From Anaeromyxobacter dehalogenans 2CP-1 (GTDB lineage Bacteria > Myxococcota > Myxococcia > Myxococcales > Anaeromyxobacteraceae), in NCBI RefSeq assembly GCF_000022145.1, contig NC_011891.1, positions 3,144,501-3,208,500 on the forward strand: a stretch of 64,000 bases of DNA, in the 5' to 3' direction. Made by a program: the position numbers and the translations under genes. The notes under the pieces were generated by a model. The model worked only from the letters and a program-made list of their open reading frames with translations, searched no databases and was not told the DNA's origin. Within the stretch, counting starts at the first letter, position 1. Each line of letters opens with the position of its first letter. This document shows positions 57,490 to 64,000 of this stretch, piece by piece.

Positions 57490-59724
57490 TCAGACCTCGA
57501 TCCGCACCTTCAGGTCGCCCCCCTGGATCTCCAGCACCTCGGCGAACGCGTTCGCCTTGCCTCGGGTGAAGCGCAGGCTCACCCGGGCGGGTCCGACGCG
57601 GAGCCCGTGCAGCACCAGCTCGTCCAGCCAGGGCGGCAGCCAGGGCTGCACCACGCGCAGCGTCCGGCGCGGCGCGTCCGCCTGCAGGCCGAGCACGGCC
57701 CGCACGAGCAGGAACCACGCCGCCGAGGACCACGCCTGCGGCGAGCAGGCCACCGGGTAGCTCACCGGGAACTGCCCCGCCGAGCGCGACAGGCCGCAGA
57801 ACAGCTCGGGCATGCGGAGCTGGCGGAAGTGCTGCGCCGCGTCCCAGAGCCCGGTCAGCACCTGCCCCGCCTGCCGCGTCATGCCGTAGGCGGCCATGCC
57901 CATGGCGCAGAGCGCGTTGTCATGGGGCCACACGGTGCCGTCGTGGTAGCTGAGCGGGTTGTAGGCGCGCTGGCCGGCCGCGAGCGTCCGGATGCCCCAC
58001 CCGCTCCACGACTCGCGCCCGAGCAGCGACGCCGCCACCTGGTGCGCGCGCGCGTCGGAGATGGCGCCCGAGAACAGCAGGTGCCCCGGGTTGGAGGTCA
58101 CCGCGTCCACCTGGCGCTCGTCGCGGTCGAGCGCGATCGCGTAGGTGCCCTTGCGCTCCATCCAGAAGCGCTCCTCCAGCCGCTCCGCGTGCAGCCGCGC
58201 CGCCGTCACCAGCGCCTGCGCCTCGGAGCGCCGCCCCCGGCGCCGGAGCAGCGCCGCCATGCGCCGGCGCGCGTCGATGCAGTAGCCCTGCACCTCCACC
58301 AGCGCGATGGGGGGCTCGGCCGGCGTGCCGTCCGCGAACGGCACGCCGTCGTGGCTGTCCTTCCAGCCCTGGTTGCGCAGCCCCTGCTGCGTGCGCCGCT
58401 GGTACTCCACCAGCCCGTCGTCGTCGGGGTCCGCCCAGCGATCCATCCACGCGAGCGCGCGCTCCGCCGCGGGGAGCAGCGCCTCCACCGTCTCGTGGTC
58501 GTCGGTCCACAGGTCGTACTCGGAGAGCAGCACCAGGAACAGCGGCGTCGCGTCCACCGAGCCGTAGTACGGCGTGTGCGGCACCTCGCCGGCCGCGGCC
58601 ATCTCGCCGAAGCGGATCTCGTGCGGGATCTTGCCGGGCTCCTCGTCGCGGCTCGGGTCGTCGCGCTCGCCCTGCAGCCGCGCCAGGAACCGGAGCGCGT
58701 CGCGCGCCACCTCGGGCTGCGCGGCGAGCGCCTCGTACCCCGCGATGAGCGCGTCGCGGCCGAACGGGCAGGTGTACCAGGGGATGCCCGCGGAGATGAC
58801 CGGCGCGCCGAAGTGGTAGACCGTGAGCGCCTTCAGGTCCGCGACCGCCTGCTCGAGCGCCGAGGTGAAGAGGTCGTTCGAGGCGACGAACCGGGTGGCC
58901 TGCGCGGCGTACGCCGAGTACGCCTCGCGCGTGCACGACGCCCGGGCGCCGAACGACCGCGGCGCCGGCGGCGGCACCGGCCGCTCCTCGTCGAGCCCGC
59001 GGGCCCGCCCCGGCGCCCCGCGCTCGATGCCGGCCGCCACCGCGAAGTGGACCTCGACGTGCTCGGCCGGCTCGAGGTGCAGCCTCACGCGGGCGCCCCG
59101 GGCGTCCAGGGAGGCGAGCGCCGCCGGCGCCCCGTCCGCCCCCACGCCGCGGATCCGCACCTCGGTGGCGTAGCGCCGGCCGTCGCGGCCGTCGTAGCGC
59201 AGCACCACCTGGTCCCGCTCCACCCGCGGCGCGTGGTAGGTGCCGCGCTCGCGGCGGCGGGCGCCCCGGATCTCGAACACGTCCGCGAAGTCGGCCGCCC
59301 ACTCCAGCGCGATCCACGCGTCCACCGCCTTGCCCTGGAAGTTGGTGAGCACCAGGCGGTCCACCAGCACGTCGTCGATGAGCATGTCCCGGCGCAGGTG
59401 GACGTAGTTGAGCGGCTCGCGGCCGAGCAGGTCGCCCTCGTGCAGGCTGGTGACGGTGAAGTCCACCTGGGCCACGTAGTCCGACGAGACCTGCGACGAC
59501 AGGCAGAGCAGCGGCCCGCCGGACACCGACATGCGCCAGGCGGACAGGTGCCGGGTGTCGGTGAGGAACAGGCCGAGGTCCCGCGCGCCGGCGGGCATCA
59601 CGTCCCCGAGCCGGTTGGCGACCAGGAACAGGTTGCCGCGCTTCAGCACGAGCTTGTCGACGCCGGTCGCCTCCGGGCGGTCGGACGGGTCGGCGTAGCC
59701 GAGCAGCTCCTCCGGGCGTGCCAT
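57490..59724 (-). CDS. Amylo-alpha-1,6-glucosidase / glycogen-debranching-type glycosidase
   Basis: 744 residues. The N-terminal domain (about 30-260) is the beta-sandwich of 'glycogen debranching enzyme N-terminal' proteins (FLTDTRHLSAWRMSVSG, LVLTNFQGKAVDAW). The C-terminal (alpha/alpha)6 barrel has AGIPWYTCPFGRDALIAGYE, PHEIRFGEMA, YYGSVDATPLFLVLL (catalytic region), NQGWKDSHDGV and the HDGTVWPHDNA that follows in this family. Debranches or trims alpha-glucans; some members act on sucrose or other glucosides. Its ATG overlaps the glycosyltransferase stop (TGATG), so they are co-translated. No other trehalose/glycogen genes are in view. Confidence 0.9.
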   Translation of the reverse strand: MARPEELLGYADPSDRPEATGVDKLVLKRGNLFLVANRLGDVMPAGARDLGLFLTDTRHLSAWRMSVSGGPLLCLSSQVSSDYVAQVDFTVTSLHEGDLLGREPLNYVHLRRDMLIDDVLVDRLVLTNFQGKAVDAWIALEWAADFADVFEIRGARRRERGTYHAPRVERDQVVLRYDGRDGRRYATEVRIRGVGADGAPAALASLDARGARVRLHLEPAEHVEVHFAVAAGIERGAPGRARGLDEERPVPPPAPRSFGARASCTREAYSAYAAQATRFVASNDLFTSALEQAVADLKALTVYHFGAPVISAGIPWYTCPFGRDALIAGYEALAAQPEVARDALRFLARLQGERDDPSRDEEPGKIPHEIRFGEMAAAGEVPHTPYYGSVDATPLFLVLLSEYDLWTDDHETVEALLPAAERALAWMDRWADPDDDGLVEYQRRTQQGLRNQGWKDSHDGVPFADGTPAEPPIALVEVQGYCIDARRRMAALLRRRGRRSEAQALVTAARLHAERLEERFWMERKGTYAIALDRDERQVDAVTSNPGHLLFSGAISDARAHQVAASLLGRESWSGWGIRTLAAGQRAYNPLSYHDGTVWPHDNALCAMGMAAYGMTRQAGQVLTGLWDAAQHFRQLRMPELFCGLSRSAGQFPVSYPVACSPQAWSSAAWFLLVRAVLGLQADAPRRTLRVVQPWLPPWLDELVLHGLRVGPARVSLRFTRGKANAFAEVLEIQGGDLKVRIEV

Positions 59725-60800
59725 CACGGTGCGACCGTCGTCCACTCTCCCCCCTCGCCCACGGCGGGCACCGCCGGCTCCGCGCGCGCCGCGGCGGCCC
59801 GGTACGCCGCGACGTAGTCCGCCGCCATCCGGTCCGCCGAGAACCGCTCGCGCGCCCGCCGCTGGATCTCCCGCCGATCGAGCCGCGCCGCGCGCCCGAG
59901 CGCCGCCGCCATCTCCGCCGCGCTGCGCACCAGGAACCCGTCGGCCCCGTCCACCACGATCTCCGGCGCGGCACCGAGCGGGAACGCCACCACCGGGCAG
60001 CCCGCCAGCAGCGCCTCGATCATCACCAGCCCGAACGGCTCCTCCCATCGCAGCGGCACGAGCAGCGCGCGGGCCCGGGCCAGCAGGCGCCGCTTGTCGG
60101 CGAGGCCGGCGCGCCGCGTCCAGGAGACGTGCGGCGCCGCCAGCGACGGCGAGAGCACCTCCTCGTCCCAGGCCTCCGGGTGATCGTCCTCCCCGTGCAC
60201 GTCGCCGGCCACGTCGATGCGCAGGCCCGCCCGCCGCGCCGCCTCGACCGCCACCTCGGGCGCCTTGCACCAGGAGAGCCGTCCCAGGAAGAACGCGCCG
60301 CCGCCGCCGTCGCCCTCGCGCACGTCGGGGTAGAGGACCGGGTCGAGCCCGTGGTGGATCACGCGGTGCGCCGGCGGCGAGGACAGCTCGGCCTGCCGCC
60401 GCGAGATGGCGACGCGCAGCACCGCCGGGACGCGCGCGTAGAAGCGCGCGAGCGCCGGGTCGGGCGCGTGGTGCAGGGTGTAGACGACCGGCGCGGGCAG
60501 CGCCCCGGCGAACGCGAGCATGGCCGGGAGGTGCGCGTGCACCACGTCGAAGCCGCCGCGGGCGATCTCCGCCGCGGCGAAGCGGCAGTGGAGCAGCTCG
60601 GCGTAGGGCTCGGGCGGCCAGACCGGCGCCTCGAAGGTCGCGCGGAGCCCGGGAACCCGGGAGTCGCCGGTCGCGAACACCGCCACCCGGTGCCCCGCCC
60701 GCACCAGCGCGCGGGCCAGCGCGTCCACCACCAGCTCGGTCCCACCGTAGGCCGGGGGAGGCACCGCCACGAAGGGAGTCGAGACGATCGCGACGTGCAC
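59724..60800 (-). CDS. GT4-family glycosyltransferase
   Basis: 358 residues from a GTG at 60800 (VHVAIVSTPFVAVPPPAYGG). GT-B fold: VVYTLHHAP, FFLGRLSWCKAPEVAVEA, the C-terminal nucleotide-sugar site with PLRWEEPFGLVMIEALLAGCPVVAF (E-x7-E motif) and GFLVRSAAEM. Transfers a sugar from a nucleotide donor, probably to a glucan or glycoside, with the retaining mechanism of GT4. The GTG start gives a typical N-terminal beta strand. Coupled to the debranching enzyme, suggesting both act on one polysaccharide. Confidence 0.9.
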   Translation of the reverse strand: MHVAIVSTPFVAVPPPAYGGTELVVDALARALVRAGHRVAVFATGDSRVPGLRATFEAPVWPPEPYAELLHCRFAAAEIARGGFDVVHAHLPAMLAFAGALPAPVVYTLHHAPDPALARFYARVPAVLRVAISRRQAELSSPPAHRVIHHGLDPVLYPDVREGDGGGGAFFLGRLSWCKAPEVAVEAARRAGLRIDVAGDVHGEDDHPEAWDEEVLSPSLAAPHVSWTRRAGLADKRRLLARARALLVPLRWEEPFGLVMIEALLAGCPVVAFPLGAAPEIVVDGADGFLVRSAAEMAAALGRAARLDRREIQRRARERFSADRMAADYVAAYRAAAARAEPAVPAVGEGGEWTTVAP

Positions 60801-60920
60801 GATGTCAAAGCTAGGACCGGCGCCCGGCGCGGACCACCGCCGAGCGCCCGGGCGCGTGCGCCGGCGCCGGCCCGGCGCTAGGTATGGACGCTCGCGGCCC
60901 GGAGGCCGCGCGGAGGCCGC

Positions 60921-61592
60921 ATGGCGCTCATCGGGAAGGACGACGCGGAGCAGATCCGCGCGGAGCTGGAAGGCGCGCTGCAGGGCGACGTCAAGCTGAC
61001 GCTCGTCGGCCCGAGCGCCCTCGCCCCGCCGGCGCGGGATCTCACCCCGCAGATCCGCCAGCTGCTGGAGGAGGTGGCGGCGCTGTCGCCCAAGCTCGCG
61101 TTCGAGTACCTCGACCTGCCCACCCCCGAACAGCGCGAGGCGCTCGGGCTGGCGACGGACGAGGCCGGTCCGCTCACGCTCCTCTCCGGCGCGGCGCGCG
61201 GGCGCGTGCGCTACCTCGGGGCGCCCGCCGGCCACGAGTTCCCGAACCTCGTGAACGGCATCATCGACGTGTCGCGCGGCGAGTCCGGGCTGTCGCCCGC
61301 CTCGCGCGAGGCGCTCGCCCGGATCTCACGGCCGGTGCACATCAAGGTGTTCTTCACGCCCACTTGACCGTACTGCCCCCAGGCGGCCGGTCTGGCCCAT
61401 GCCATCGCGGTGGAGAGCGCCCACGTCGTCGCCGACGCCATCGAGGCCCAGGAGTTCCCCGACCTCGCGGCGCGGTACCAGGTCATGGGCGTGCCCAAGA
61501 CGATCGTGAACGACGTCGAGGAGTTCGTCGGCGCCGTCCCGGAGGACGAGTTCGTGGCGCACGTGCTCCGGGCGGCCGGCGTGCCGGCCTGA
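60921..61592 (+). CDS. Putative selenoprotein: two-domain thioredoxin-fold disulfide oxidoreductase (UPYC active site)
   Basis: 223 residues if the in-frame TGA at 61365-61367 (codon 149) is read as selenocysteine. The frame before it ends VHIKVFFTPT and after it continues PYCPQAAGLAHAIAVES, then VMGVPKTIVNDVEEF to a normal TGA. Homologues of the PDO/AhpF-N-terminal thioredoxin family have TPTCPYC here, so the TGA replaces the first Cys of CPYC. The first thioredoxin-like domain (about 1-125, VKLTLVGPS...KLAFEYLDLPT) lacks its own CxxC; the second (about 135-223) keeps the cis-Pro in MGVPKT. GGAGG before the ATG supports the start. Codon use is normal across the TGA. A SECIS-like hairpin follows. 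Alternative: a point mutation making a pseudogene. Confidence 0.8.
61365..61403 (+). promoter_or_regulatory. SECIS-like stem-loop after in-frame TGA
   Basis: From the TGA (61365-61367), the upper stem GGCC (61385-61388) / GGCC (61394-61397) closes a GGTCT loop (61389-61393). The lower GGC (61382-61384) can pair with GCC (61401-61403) across a 3-nt bulge. The loop begins 21 nt after the TGA, inside the range of bacterial SECIS elements, and GGU(CU) matches the SelB-contacting loop of E. coli fdhF. Confidence 0.7.
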
Positions 61593-61781
61593 CCGGCCGA
61601 GGACGGCGCCCGCGGCGCGACGCTCGCGCACCCTCGCGCGTGCCGCCTTGGTGCGTGCCGCGATCGCGCGTCGCGCGGTCGCGCGGGTGGCCAGGCGATC
61701 GCCCCCCTGGCAGCATCCCCTGCACGCCTCGTCGCGCCGGGTCGGGGGACCCGGGCGCCGGGCGCACGGATCGGGGGATCC

Positions 61782-63509
61782 ATGCAGCCGAAGTCCGCCT
61801 TCCGGCGCGCGCACGTCGCGCGCCTCGCCACGCTCGCGCTCGCCGCCGCGGCCCTCGCGGCCTGCTCGTCCGGCGGCGGCGCGACCGCGCCGTCCGCGCC
61901 GTCCGCGCCGCAGGAGCCCGCCGGTGGCACGCCGGTCCCGCGGTCGCTCTCGGTGTCGCCGGCGGCCGCCACGCTCGCGACCGGCTTCACCGAGAGGCTC
62001 ATCGCGATCGCCACCTTCTCCGACGGCTCGAAGCGGGACGTCACCGCCACCGCCGCCTGGGAGTCCTCGGCGCCGGCCACGGCCTCGGTGGTGGCCGGCG
62101 AGGTCACCGGCGTCGCGCCCGGCGCGGCGACGCTGAGGGCGCGCTGGTCCGGGCTGCACGGCGCCAGCGAGGTGACGGTCACCTCGGCCGTCCTCCGGTC
62201 GATCGTCGTGACCCCGCCGTTCCCGAGCCTGCCGCTCGGCGCCGACCTGCAGCTCGCCGCGACCGGCCTGTTCTCGGACGGCAGCGCGCGCGACGTGACC
62301 GCGGAGGCGGCCTGGGAGAGCGCCGCCCCGGCGGTCGCGGCCGTGCCGTCGCCCGGCCTGGTGCAGCCGGTCGCCACCGGCGACGCGTCCGTCTCGGCCA
62401 CGCTGGCGGGGGTGAGCGGCGCCACCACGGTCAGCGTGACCGCCGCCACGCTCGAGTCGCTCGACGTGTACCCGGGCGCCGCCACCCTGGCCCGCGGCAC
62501 CTCGACCGCGTTCACCGCGCTCGGGACCTACTCCGACGGCACGTCCGCGGACCTCACCGCGCAGGCGGCCTGGGACACGAGCGGGCCGGAGGTGACGCTC
62601 TCCGCGCCCGGCCTCGAGGGCGTGGTGGTCACCGGGGCCGCCGAGGGCACCGCGACCGTCACGGCGGCGTTCGGCGGCCTCACCAGCGCGGCGGCGGTGA
62701 CGGTCACCGCGGCCGGGCTGACCGGGCTCGCGGTGTCCCCGGCCGCGCTCGACCTGCCGGTGGGCCTCTCCGGACCGCTCACCGCGACCGGCACGTTCTC
62801 CGACGGCTCGACCCAGGACCTGACGGCGCAGGTGGCGTGGGTGTCCTCCGCCGCGGCGGTGGCGGCGCCATCCAACGCGCCCGGGAGCGAGGGGCTCGTC
62901 AGCGCGCTCTCGGCCGGCGACGCCACCGTCAGCGCGACGCTGTTCGGCCGGACCGCCTCGGCCGCGGTGACCGTCCGCGCGGCGGCGCTGCGGTCCATCG
63001 CGGTGACGCCCGGCGCCGCGTCGGTGCCCGCGGGCTACCAGGTCCGGTTCCAGGCGACCGGCACCTACAGCGACGGCTCGTCGCACGAGCTCACAGGCAG
63101 CGCCGTCTGGATCAGCGCCGACCCGGCGGTCGCGACGGTGGTGGCCACCGGGACCGGCGCGGGCGCGGCCAGCGGCGTGGCGCCCGGGACCGCCCGGATC
63201 TCGGCGGCGCTCGGCGGCGTGACCGGCGAGGCGACGCTGACGGTGGGCTCGGCCCGGCTCGTCTCGGTGGCGGTGTCACCCTCCCCGTTCGACGTGGGGG
63301 TGGGCGGAACGGCGCAGCTCACCGCCACCGGCACGTTCAGCGACGGGAGCACGCTCGACGTCACGCGGCAGAGCGTCTGGAGCTCCGGCACGAAGTCGAT
63401 CGCGACCGTCTCCCGGGCCGGCGTGGTGACCGGGCTGCGGGCCGGGGCGGTGACCGTCCAGGCGAACCGCGCCGGCAGGAAGGGCCGCGTCGACGGCACC
63501 GTCCGGTGA
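61782..63509 (+). CDS. Lipoprotein with six bacterial Ig-like (BIG2) domains
   Basis: 575 residues. Lipobox LAAC at about residue 27 followed by SSGGG, so outer-membrane anchored. The rest is six tandem BIG2-type domains of about 85 residues, each opening like SLSVSPAAATL, SIVVTPPFP, SLDVYPGAATL, GLAVSPAALDL, SIAVTPGAASV or SVAVSPSPFDV and containing F(S)DGS..D(V/L)T and A.W.S. BIG2 domains act in adhesion, surface display or cell-surface carbohydrate binding. The last domain ends NRAGRKGRVDGTVR. Start ATG at 61782 has GGGGGATCC upstream. It lies 67 nt before a PilT-like gene but no functional link is shown. Confidence 0.88.
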   Translation: MQPKSAFRRAHVARLATLALAAAALAACSSGGGATAPSAPSAPQEPAGGTPVPRSLSVSPAAATLATGFTERLIAIATFSDGSKRDVTATAAWESSAPATASVVAGEVTGVAPGAATLRARWSGLHGASEVTVTSAVLRSIVVTPPFPSLPLGADLQLAATGLFSDGSARDVTAEAAWESAAPAVAAVPSPGLVQPVATGDASVSATLAGVSGATTVSVTAATLESLDVYPGAATLARGTSTAFTALGTYSDGTSADLTAQAAWDTSGPEVTLSAPGLEGVVVTGAAEGTATVTAAFGGLTSAAAVTVTAAGLTGLAVSPAALDLPVGLSGPLTATGTFSDGSTQDLTAQVAWVSSAAAVAAPSNAPGSEGLVSALSAGDATVSATLFGRTASAAVTVRAAALRSIAVTPGAASVPAGYQVRFQATGTYSDGSSHELTGSAVWISADPAVATVVATGTGAGAASGVAPGTARISAALGGVTGEATLTVGSARLVSVAVSPSPFDVGVGGTAQLTATGTFSDGSTLDVTRQSVWSSGTKSIATVSRAGVVTGLRAGAVTVQANRAGRKGRVDGTVR

Positions 63510-63561
63510 GGAAGCGGGGGCGCGGCCCGCGACCTTGCTGGCCGCGCCCTCCGGTTGACGC

Positions 63562-63567
63562 TAGACT
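63562..63567 (+). promoter_or_regulatory. -10 element before the PilT-like gene
   Basis: TAGACT ends nine bases before the ATG at 63577. A TTGACG just upstream (63554-63559) is too close to be its -35. No ribosome site precedes the ATG, so a leaderless transcript is possible. Confidence 0.35.
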
Positions 63568-63576
63568 CACCGTCTT

Positions 63577-64000
63577 ATGGAAGGACAGGGTCCGCTCAGC
63601 GAGGAGCTGTTCCACTCGTTCCTGCAGCTCGCCGTGAAGCGCCAGGCGAGCGACGTGCACTTCGAGGTGGGCTACCCCCCCACCTACCGGGTGTTCGGGG
63701 AGCTGCTGGCCGCGAAGTACCCGCCGCTGACGCACGCGGACACGGAGGCGATCGCGAACTTCGTCCTCCAGGCCCCGGGTTCGGGGTTCACGCCGCTCGA
63801 CTTCCGCGAGGTGGACCGCAGCTACTCGCTGCCCGGGGTGTCGCGCTTCCGCGCGTCCATCTTCAAGCAGCGCGGGAGCTGGGGCGCGGTGATGCGCACC
63901 ATCCCGTTCCAGATCCCGGACTTCGACACGCTGAACCTGCCGCCCGTCATCCGCACCATCGCCGAGGCGCGCCGCGGGCTCATCTGCGTGACCGGCGCCA
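63577..64000 (+). CDS. PilT/PilU-type twitching ATPase, 5' part
   Basis: The first 141 residues, cut by the window edge. N-terminal domain of type IV pilus retraction/secretion ATPases: LFHSFLQLAVKRQASDVHFEVG (cf. ASDLHL of PilT), YRVFGELLAAKYPPLTHAD, LDFREVDRSYSLPGVSRFRASIFKQRGS and MRTIPFQIPDFDTLNLPPVIR. Walker A is about to begin (GLICVTGA). PilT retracts pili; PilU is the accessory paralogue, and its genes are often single. The family is clear, but PilT and PilU cannot be separated from this part. Confidence 0.88.
   Translation, partial: MEGQGPLSEELFHSFLQLAVKRQASDVHFEVGYPPTYRVFGELLAAKYPPLTHADTEAIANFVLQAPGSGFTPLDFREVDRSYSLPGVSRFRASIFKQRGSWGAVMRTIPFQIPDFDTLNLPPVIRTIAEARRGLICVTGA

Follow-up and report, generated by a model that had tools for sequence, protein, structure and literature searches.

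In Anaeromyxobacter dehalogenans 2CP-1, the window (the whole 64,000-nucleotide stretch of DNA that we analysed) contains an ordinary open reading frame (60921-61367) whose 148-amino-acid product ends at a TGA, exactly where a thioredoxin-fold oxidoreductase would carry the first cysteine of its active site. This raises the question of whether the codon terminates translation or is read as selenocysteine (Sec). The original prediction had favoured Sec, placing the TGA where the first active-site Cys falls in a TPT-TGA-PYC motif with family-typical residues continuing beyond it, and both observations were borne out: within a frame of 223 codons the TGA is number 149 and the single internal stop, the terminal stop being a second TGA (61590-61592), and read-through yields a 223-residue product with TPT-U-PYC (UPYC at residues 149-152) and a VP motif at residues 191-192. 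The first Cys of this protein is at codon 152. As had also been anticipated, an ordinary gene caller would return only the 148-residue fragment, and products of this length are what the databases hold. The window covers 3144501-3208500 of the single 5,029,329-base contig of this genome, and the features of the locus are collected in Table 1.

Table 1. Features of the seleno-PDO locus, in positions of the window
Feature	Position	Strand	Evidence
Full seleno-PDO frame of 223 codons and a stop, spanning the internal TGA	60921..61592	+	TIGR02187 residues 7-217; PF13192 residues 139-216
Codons 1-148 (gene-caller product): Cys-free N-terminal thioredoxin fold and start of the second fold	60921..61364	+	
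TGA codon 149, in frame; predicted Sec, opening the UPYC active site	61365..61367	+	Codon conservation; Cys in homologues
Codon 152, resolving Cys of UPYC; the protein's only Cys	61374..61376	+	Sequence, alignment
SECIS-like hairpin: GGC and GGCC, loop GGUCU (61389-61393), GGCC, bulge CAU, GCC	61382..61403	+	
Pro192, putative cis-Pro opposite the active site	61494..61496	+	V191-P192 invariant in 24 alignment rows

The translated frame matched the NCBIfam family TIGR02187 (PDO_seleno_TRX) at 204 bits (cut-off 185, E 1.7e-60) over profile positions 3-208 of 209, a match across the TGA that is far beyond chance, and Pfam Thioredoxin_3 (PF13192) covered the second fold from ten residues before the TGA onwards. 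When the whole genome was searched with TIGR02187, this protein disulfide oxidoreductase (PDO) was the sole match, at 196 bits. An AlphaFold2 model built from a 24-row alignment, with U modelled as Cys, was of high confidence (pLDDT 93.4, pTM 0.91). Aquifex and Pyrococcus protein disulfide oxidoreductases headed its PDB matches (TM to query 0.85-0.89), followed by AhpF N-terminal domains (0.76-0.80). As expected of TIGR02187, the model has two thioredoxin folds, and U149 and C152 in the second of these align with the Cys pairs of relatives. The protein cannot be classed with the two-centre PDOs of the Pyrococcus type, which have a CxxC in both folds, and the original prediction of a redox-inactive first domain is consistent with the absence of any Cys from that domain. 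Nor is it an AhpF, as TIGR03140 scored only 44.4 bits against a cut-off of 502.9 and the protein ends at residue 223, without the flavoprotein part. The pairing of Cys and Sec at codon 149, which had been proposed as a check, was found throughout: Cys was aligned to residue 149 in 22/22 database rows, with C152 invariant, and in all 54 full-length homologues among the best 120 of 1584. The gene thus has the hallmark of a selenoprotein gene, an in-frame UGA aligned to the Cys of its homologues. A cis geometry at this proline is typical of the family, and Pro192 would adopt it.

Absence of the Sec machinery had been named as grounds for abandoning the prediction; however, the genome encodes all of it. 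Matches over cut-off were found for selA (two pieces in one frame, 509 bits joined), selB (315 bits joined) and selD (381 bits), and ARAGORN identified a tRNA-SeC with anticodon tca. The selD gene (3923608-3924534, minus strand) has a single in-frame TGA of its own, where the motif reads GAGUACK, and is therefore likely a selenoprotein gene in its own right. Three formate dehydrogenase-like genes, recognised as pieces of TIGR01591 that all scored below the cut-off, have a single in-frame TGA each, with the Sec sites ARLUHSP, ARVUHGP and ARIUHSS. Thioredoxin reductase is represented in the genome by a single match over cut-off (413 bits).

We then compared the locus among relatives. The gene was present in 4 of 24 family genomes (in 3 of the 16 that were near-complete and clean, the other eight lying outside that standard), and the TGA was kept in 4/4; a different stop or a frameshift in close strains would have spoken for a pseudogene, and no carrier had another stop in its place. 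A contig search returned two loci, that of Anaeromyxobacter sp. PSR-1 at 98% and that of A. oryzae at 85%. We compared four distinct DNA sequences, namely the window, G001, G006 (the PSR-1 sequence) and G002 (the A. oryzae sequence); all were of equal length, with stops at codons 149 and 224 only. Relative to A. oryzae, codons 150-223 differed by 15 synonymous and 5 nonsynonymous changes, and codons 2-148 by 45 and 27; by the NG86 method, dN was 0.047 and dS 0.406 after the TGA, compared to 0.130 and 0.661 before it. This pattern of substitution indicates that the codons downstream of the TGA are under purifying selection. GC content by codon position was similar on the two sides (0.81/0.42/0.97 after the TGA, 0.77/0.49/0.96 before), and the selection and composition together speak for translation through the TGA.

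Among 195 genomes of the phylum, TIGR02187 was found over cut-off in nine. Four Anaeromyxobacter copies had the TGA, three of them over cut-off, the A. oryzae copy falling slightly below it (183.9 bits against 185); the other six over cut-off had no internal stop. As selA was present in 24/24 family genomes while the PDO gene was missing from 20/24, the gene is dispensable, and its absence is not explained by a missing selA. In the family genomes other than the four carriers, no Cys version was found as a replacement, the only TIGR02187 matches being weak ones in two genomes (G012 and G014; E ~5e-4).

Database homologues divided sharply at the active site. Taking the best 120 of 1584, we found 66 whose last residue is the one immediately before the TGA position, the other 54 having Cys at that position. 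The short rows, which include the window's own product (P0002), are of 147-150 residues in 64 cases (P0023 has 129 and P0039 has 176); their DNA was read for few, so that TGA is established as the stop codon in few. In the same set, Cys is missing altogether from all 66 short rows, whereas an N-terminal CxxC is present in 48 of the 54 full-length ones. Among the homologues listed, short forms range widely, down to 58% identity, and some are named 'alkyl hydroperoxide reductase subunit AhpF' or 'hypothetical protein'. A midpoint-rooted tree of the part before the active site, with 119 rows (the window, 65 short and 53 full-length, P0039 and P0111 having been left out), placed the window and the 65 short rows on one side of a single branch with support of 100/100, and the short or full state required one change, compared to a mean of 39.3 in shuffles; because of the midpoint root, we infer the direction of that change. 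One group of proteins therefore has both the stop-like codon and the Cys-free N-terminal domain.

These observations bear on the possibility that the gene is a pseudogene, in which a nonsense mutation created a true stop and the frame beyond it is decaying. The absence of the gene from 20 of 24 family genomes shows that loss is tolerated, and the 148-residue products in the databases look like what such a mutation would leave. However, the TGA is common to genomes whose products are 85% identical, among the best 120 of 1584 relatives 66 break off at this very residue (65 of these grouping with the window in the tree), purifying selection and codon-position GC persist past the TGA, and the Sec machinery is present. 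We consider decay of this gene to be very improbable.

If the UGA is read as Sec, an RNA signal would be expected downstream, and a hairpin with a GGUCU apical loop, 21 nucleotides after the TGA, had been proposed. Its position and loop were as described: 21 nucleotides lie between the TGA and the loop at 61389-61393, the GGCC/GGCC stem pairs 61385-61388 with 61394-61397, and three further pairs (GGC/GCC) lie below a CAU bulge. The stretch 61380-61406 folds at -10.8 kcal/mol (z -0.94 relative to shuffles). Folding 61365-61410, as had been suggested, gave another fold as the minimum (z -1.07), and two further stretches also preferred other folds (61368-61425, z +1.35; 61375-61420, z +1.66). In A. 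oryzae the same hairpin lies within the minimum fold and is two pairs longer (z +0.33). With z-scores no better than shuffles and other folds preferred, fold energy alone proves nothing, and since the 22-nucleotide hairpin is identical in all four distinct DNA sequences there is no covariation to read. The bSECIS model in the retrieved text of PMC13188914 calls for a loop of 3-9 nucleotides with G in its first two bases, a stem of 4-16 base pairs, a spacing of 16-37 nucleotides and an energy of at most -7.5 kcal/mol, and the hairpin agrees with this rule, which is a loose one, in its 5-nucleotide loop starting with GG, its 4 + 3 pairs, its spacing of 21 nucleotides and its -10.8 kcal/mol. In our own version of a loose bacterial SECIS rule, 182 of the 749 TGA trinucleotides on both strands of the window passed, but only 3 of the 749 were followed by a stem of four or more pairs capped by a GGUCU loop. 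An automatic scorer restricted to uninterrupted stems preferred, for the PDO gene, a shifted hairpin (loop GGCCG, -8.2) over the GGUCU one, and Rfam at gathering scores found one tRNA and no other element in the window.

The genome itself offered a better comparison. The 13-mer GGCCGGTCTGGCC (GGCC-GGTCT-GGCC) occurs in six copies, relative to three copies of a reversed control pattern, and two of the six follow an in-frame TGA: that of the PDO gene (17 nucleotides after) and that of the formate dehydrogenase-like gene at 4331329 with the ARVUHGP site (14 nucleotides after). The other four copies have no TGA within 45 nucleotides upstream. In the other two formate dehydrogenase-like genes, AGTCT and GGTCT lie between complementary CCCC/GGGG arms, 18 nucleotides after the TGA. 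This comparative evidence, a 13-mer common to the PDO gene and a formate dehydrogenase-like gene, argues for the predicted hairpin more strongly than fold energy does. Synonymous sites were also held around it: codons 154-182 had 26 identical codons and 2 synonymous changes relative to A. oryzae, compared to 100 and 57 in codons 2-148 and 183-223 (Fisher p 0.0017, for a stretch that was picked after inspecting the comparison). Codons 162-182 (61404-61466), which extend ~60 nucleotides past the hairpin, had 19 identical codons and 2 synonymous changes. It is possible that a longer RNA element, or a codon constraint, reaches beyond the hairpin.

Translation past the TGA could in principle involve an ordinary amino acid, with Trp or Cys inserted by suppression, as UGA read-through does occur in bacteria. 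We judged this highly unlikely, as the genome contains a complete Sec system, the hairpin is shared with a Sec-type formate dehydrogenase-like gene, and a TGA also terminates the PDO gene itself. Least credible of all is that the TGA is a true stop, the 148-residue protein the functional product and the downstream frame conserved for some other reason: the short form does extend across a wide group, down to 58% identity among the homologues listed, but it ends before the active site, has no Cys in any of 66 short rows and is missing most of the second fold, and the conserved downstream frame is the remainder of PF13192. Decay, suppression and a functional fragment were each rejected on the evidence against them.

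We are thus highly confident in a reading of this gene as a two-domain protein disulfide oxidoreductase of TIGR02187, with a predicted Sec at UGA codon 149 whose insertion is likely aided by the GGUCU hairpin. Sec at this codon, as originally predicted, is well supported by sequence evidence that includes the Sec machinery, the kept TGA, purifying selection downstream, the shared hairpin and the Cys of homologues. We hypothesize that Sec-tRNA(UCA) reaches the UGA through SelB bound to the hairpin, so that the 223-residue product would have a single redox centre, U149-P-Y-C152, in its C-terminal thioredoxin fold. The U149 selenolate would attack disulfides or peroxide-derived substrates, C152 would resolve the selenenylsulfide, and a flavoprotein, for which the thioredoxin reductase of the genome is a candidate, may recycle the enzyme. 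The role of the Cys-free N-terminal fold might be that of a scaffold or docking module, by analogy with AhpF, whose N-terminal domain has one active redox pair only, in its second fold. Without selenium, translation would end at codon 149 and leave an inactive 148-residue product.

The neighbourhood of the gene did not suggest a partner, as no redox gene was recognised among the PDO neighbours that might form an operon with it. It lies between a divergent glycosyltransferase (start 60800; identified by Pfam) and, downstream, a Big_2 protein and a conserved PilT-like gene. The Big_2 protein (window 61782-63509) is 575 amino acids long and carries repeated Big_2 Ig-like domains. The gene at 63577 had no Pfam match in its 141 codons inside the window, and its sequence, read by eye, suggests a PilT-like protein. 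Gene order in A. oryzae is glycosyltransferase, PDO, PilT-like. Five genus genomes lack the PDO gene; in four of them (G003, G004, G005 and G008) the glycosyltransferase adjoins the PilT-like gene, which indicates that the PDO gene is simply missing from the same place, and the fifth (G007, 66% complete) had no glycosyltransferase match. The stretch between glycosyltransferase and PilT-like gene (within 59724-63999 of the window) is thus variable, holding the PDO gene and the Big_2 protein, the PDO gene alone (A. oryzae) or neither (four genus genomes).

The tree and the Cys counts incline us, with some reserve, to a history in which this PDO clade moved all of its chemistry onto one selenium atom: a single Cys-to-Sec change would have been followed by loss of the N-terminal redox site, leaving the resolving Cys alone, and would have founded, in Anaeromyxobacteraceae, a seleno-PDO lineage with a single redox centre, every listed member of which appears in the databases as a fragment ending at the active site. 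As 66 of the best 120 of 1584 homologues are recorded in this cut form, their redox centre is invisible to annotation. If UGA codon 149 is read as Sec, the selenoproteome of Anaeromyxobacter would gain one more redox enzyme, and with no Cys in its N-terminal domain the protein would be well suited to testing Sec as the sole reactive centre of a PDO.

The high novelty originally claimed for such an unusual selenoprotein was not upheld. The family is curated as PDO_seleno_TRX, and the retrieved text of PMC9312934 and PMC13188914 includes it as TIGR02187, a selenoprotein family with UxxC. In that of PMC1794560 (2006), 'Homolog of AhpF, amino-terminal domain' has 2 entries in what appears to be the selenoprotein column and is named for Carboxydothermus and Symbiobacterium; 11 selenoproteins are given for A. 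dehalogenans without naming this family, although two 'thioredoxin' entries and one 'DsbA-like' entry might hide it. A TGA cluster of three members, labelled 'Glutaredoxin-like' and exemplified by Carboxydothermus CHY_0740, appears in the retrieved text of PMC1914089 (2007). We saw no report of this Anaeromyxobacter gene in the retrieved main text of PMC1794560 or PMC1914089. The gene thus adds a member to an already known selenoprotein family; what is new is a lineage with the N-terminal CxxC lost and UPYC as the predicted only redox centre, and an enzyme from a family that the 2006 list for A. dehalogenans does not name.

Relative to known systems, the Sec-type formate dehydrogenase-like gene at 4331329 of the same genome shares GGCC-GGTCT-GGCC after its Sec TGA, but encodes an unrelated protein and has the 13-mer 14 rather than 17 nucleotides after the TGA. 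The N-terminal domain of AhpF (1ZYN, 1HYU, 4O5Q) has the double thioredoxin fold in common with the seleno-PDO, which lacks the flavoprotein part. The selenoproteins of Carboxydothermus and Symbiobacterium (TIGR02187, 'Homolog of AhpF N-terminal domain'), as far as the retrieved text describes them, share the family match over cut-off and the UxxC motif; the Anaeromyxobacter lineage, which itself has lost the N-terminal CxxC, is not named for this family in the 2006 table. The PDOs of Pyrococcus and Aquifex (1A8L, 1J08, 2AYT, 2YWM) have the same two-thioredoxin-fold architecture, and the CPYC of 1J08 and 1A8L aligns with UPYC; in the Anaeromyxobacter protein, however, Sec is predicted to replace the first Cys of this motif, and the first fold has no CxxC where 1J08 has CQYC.
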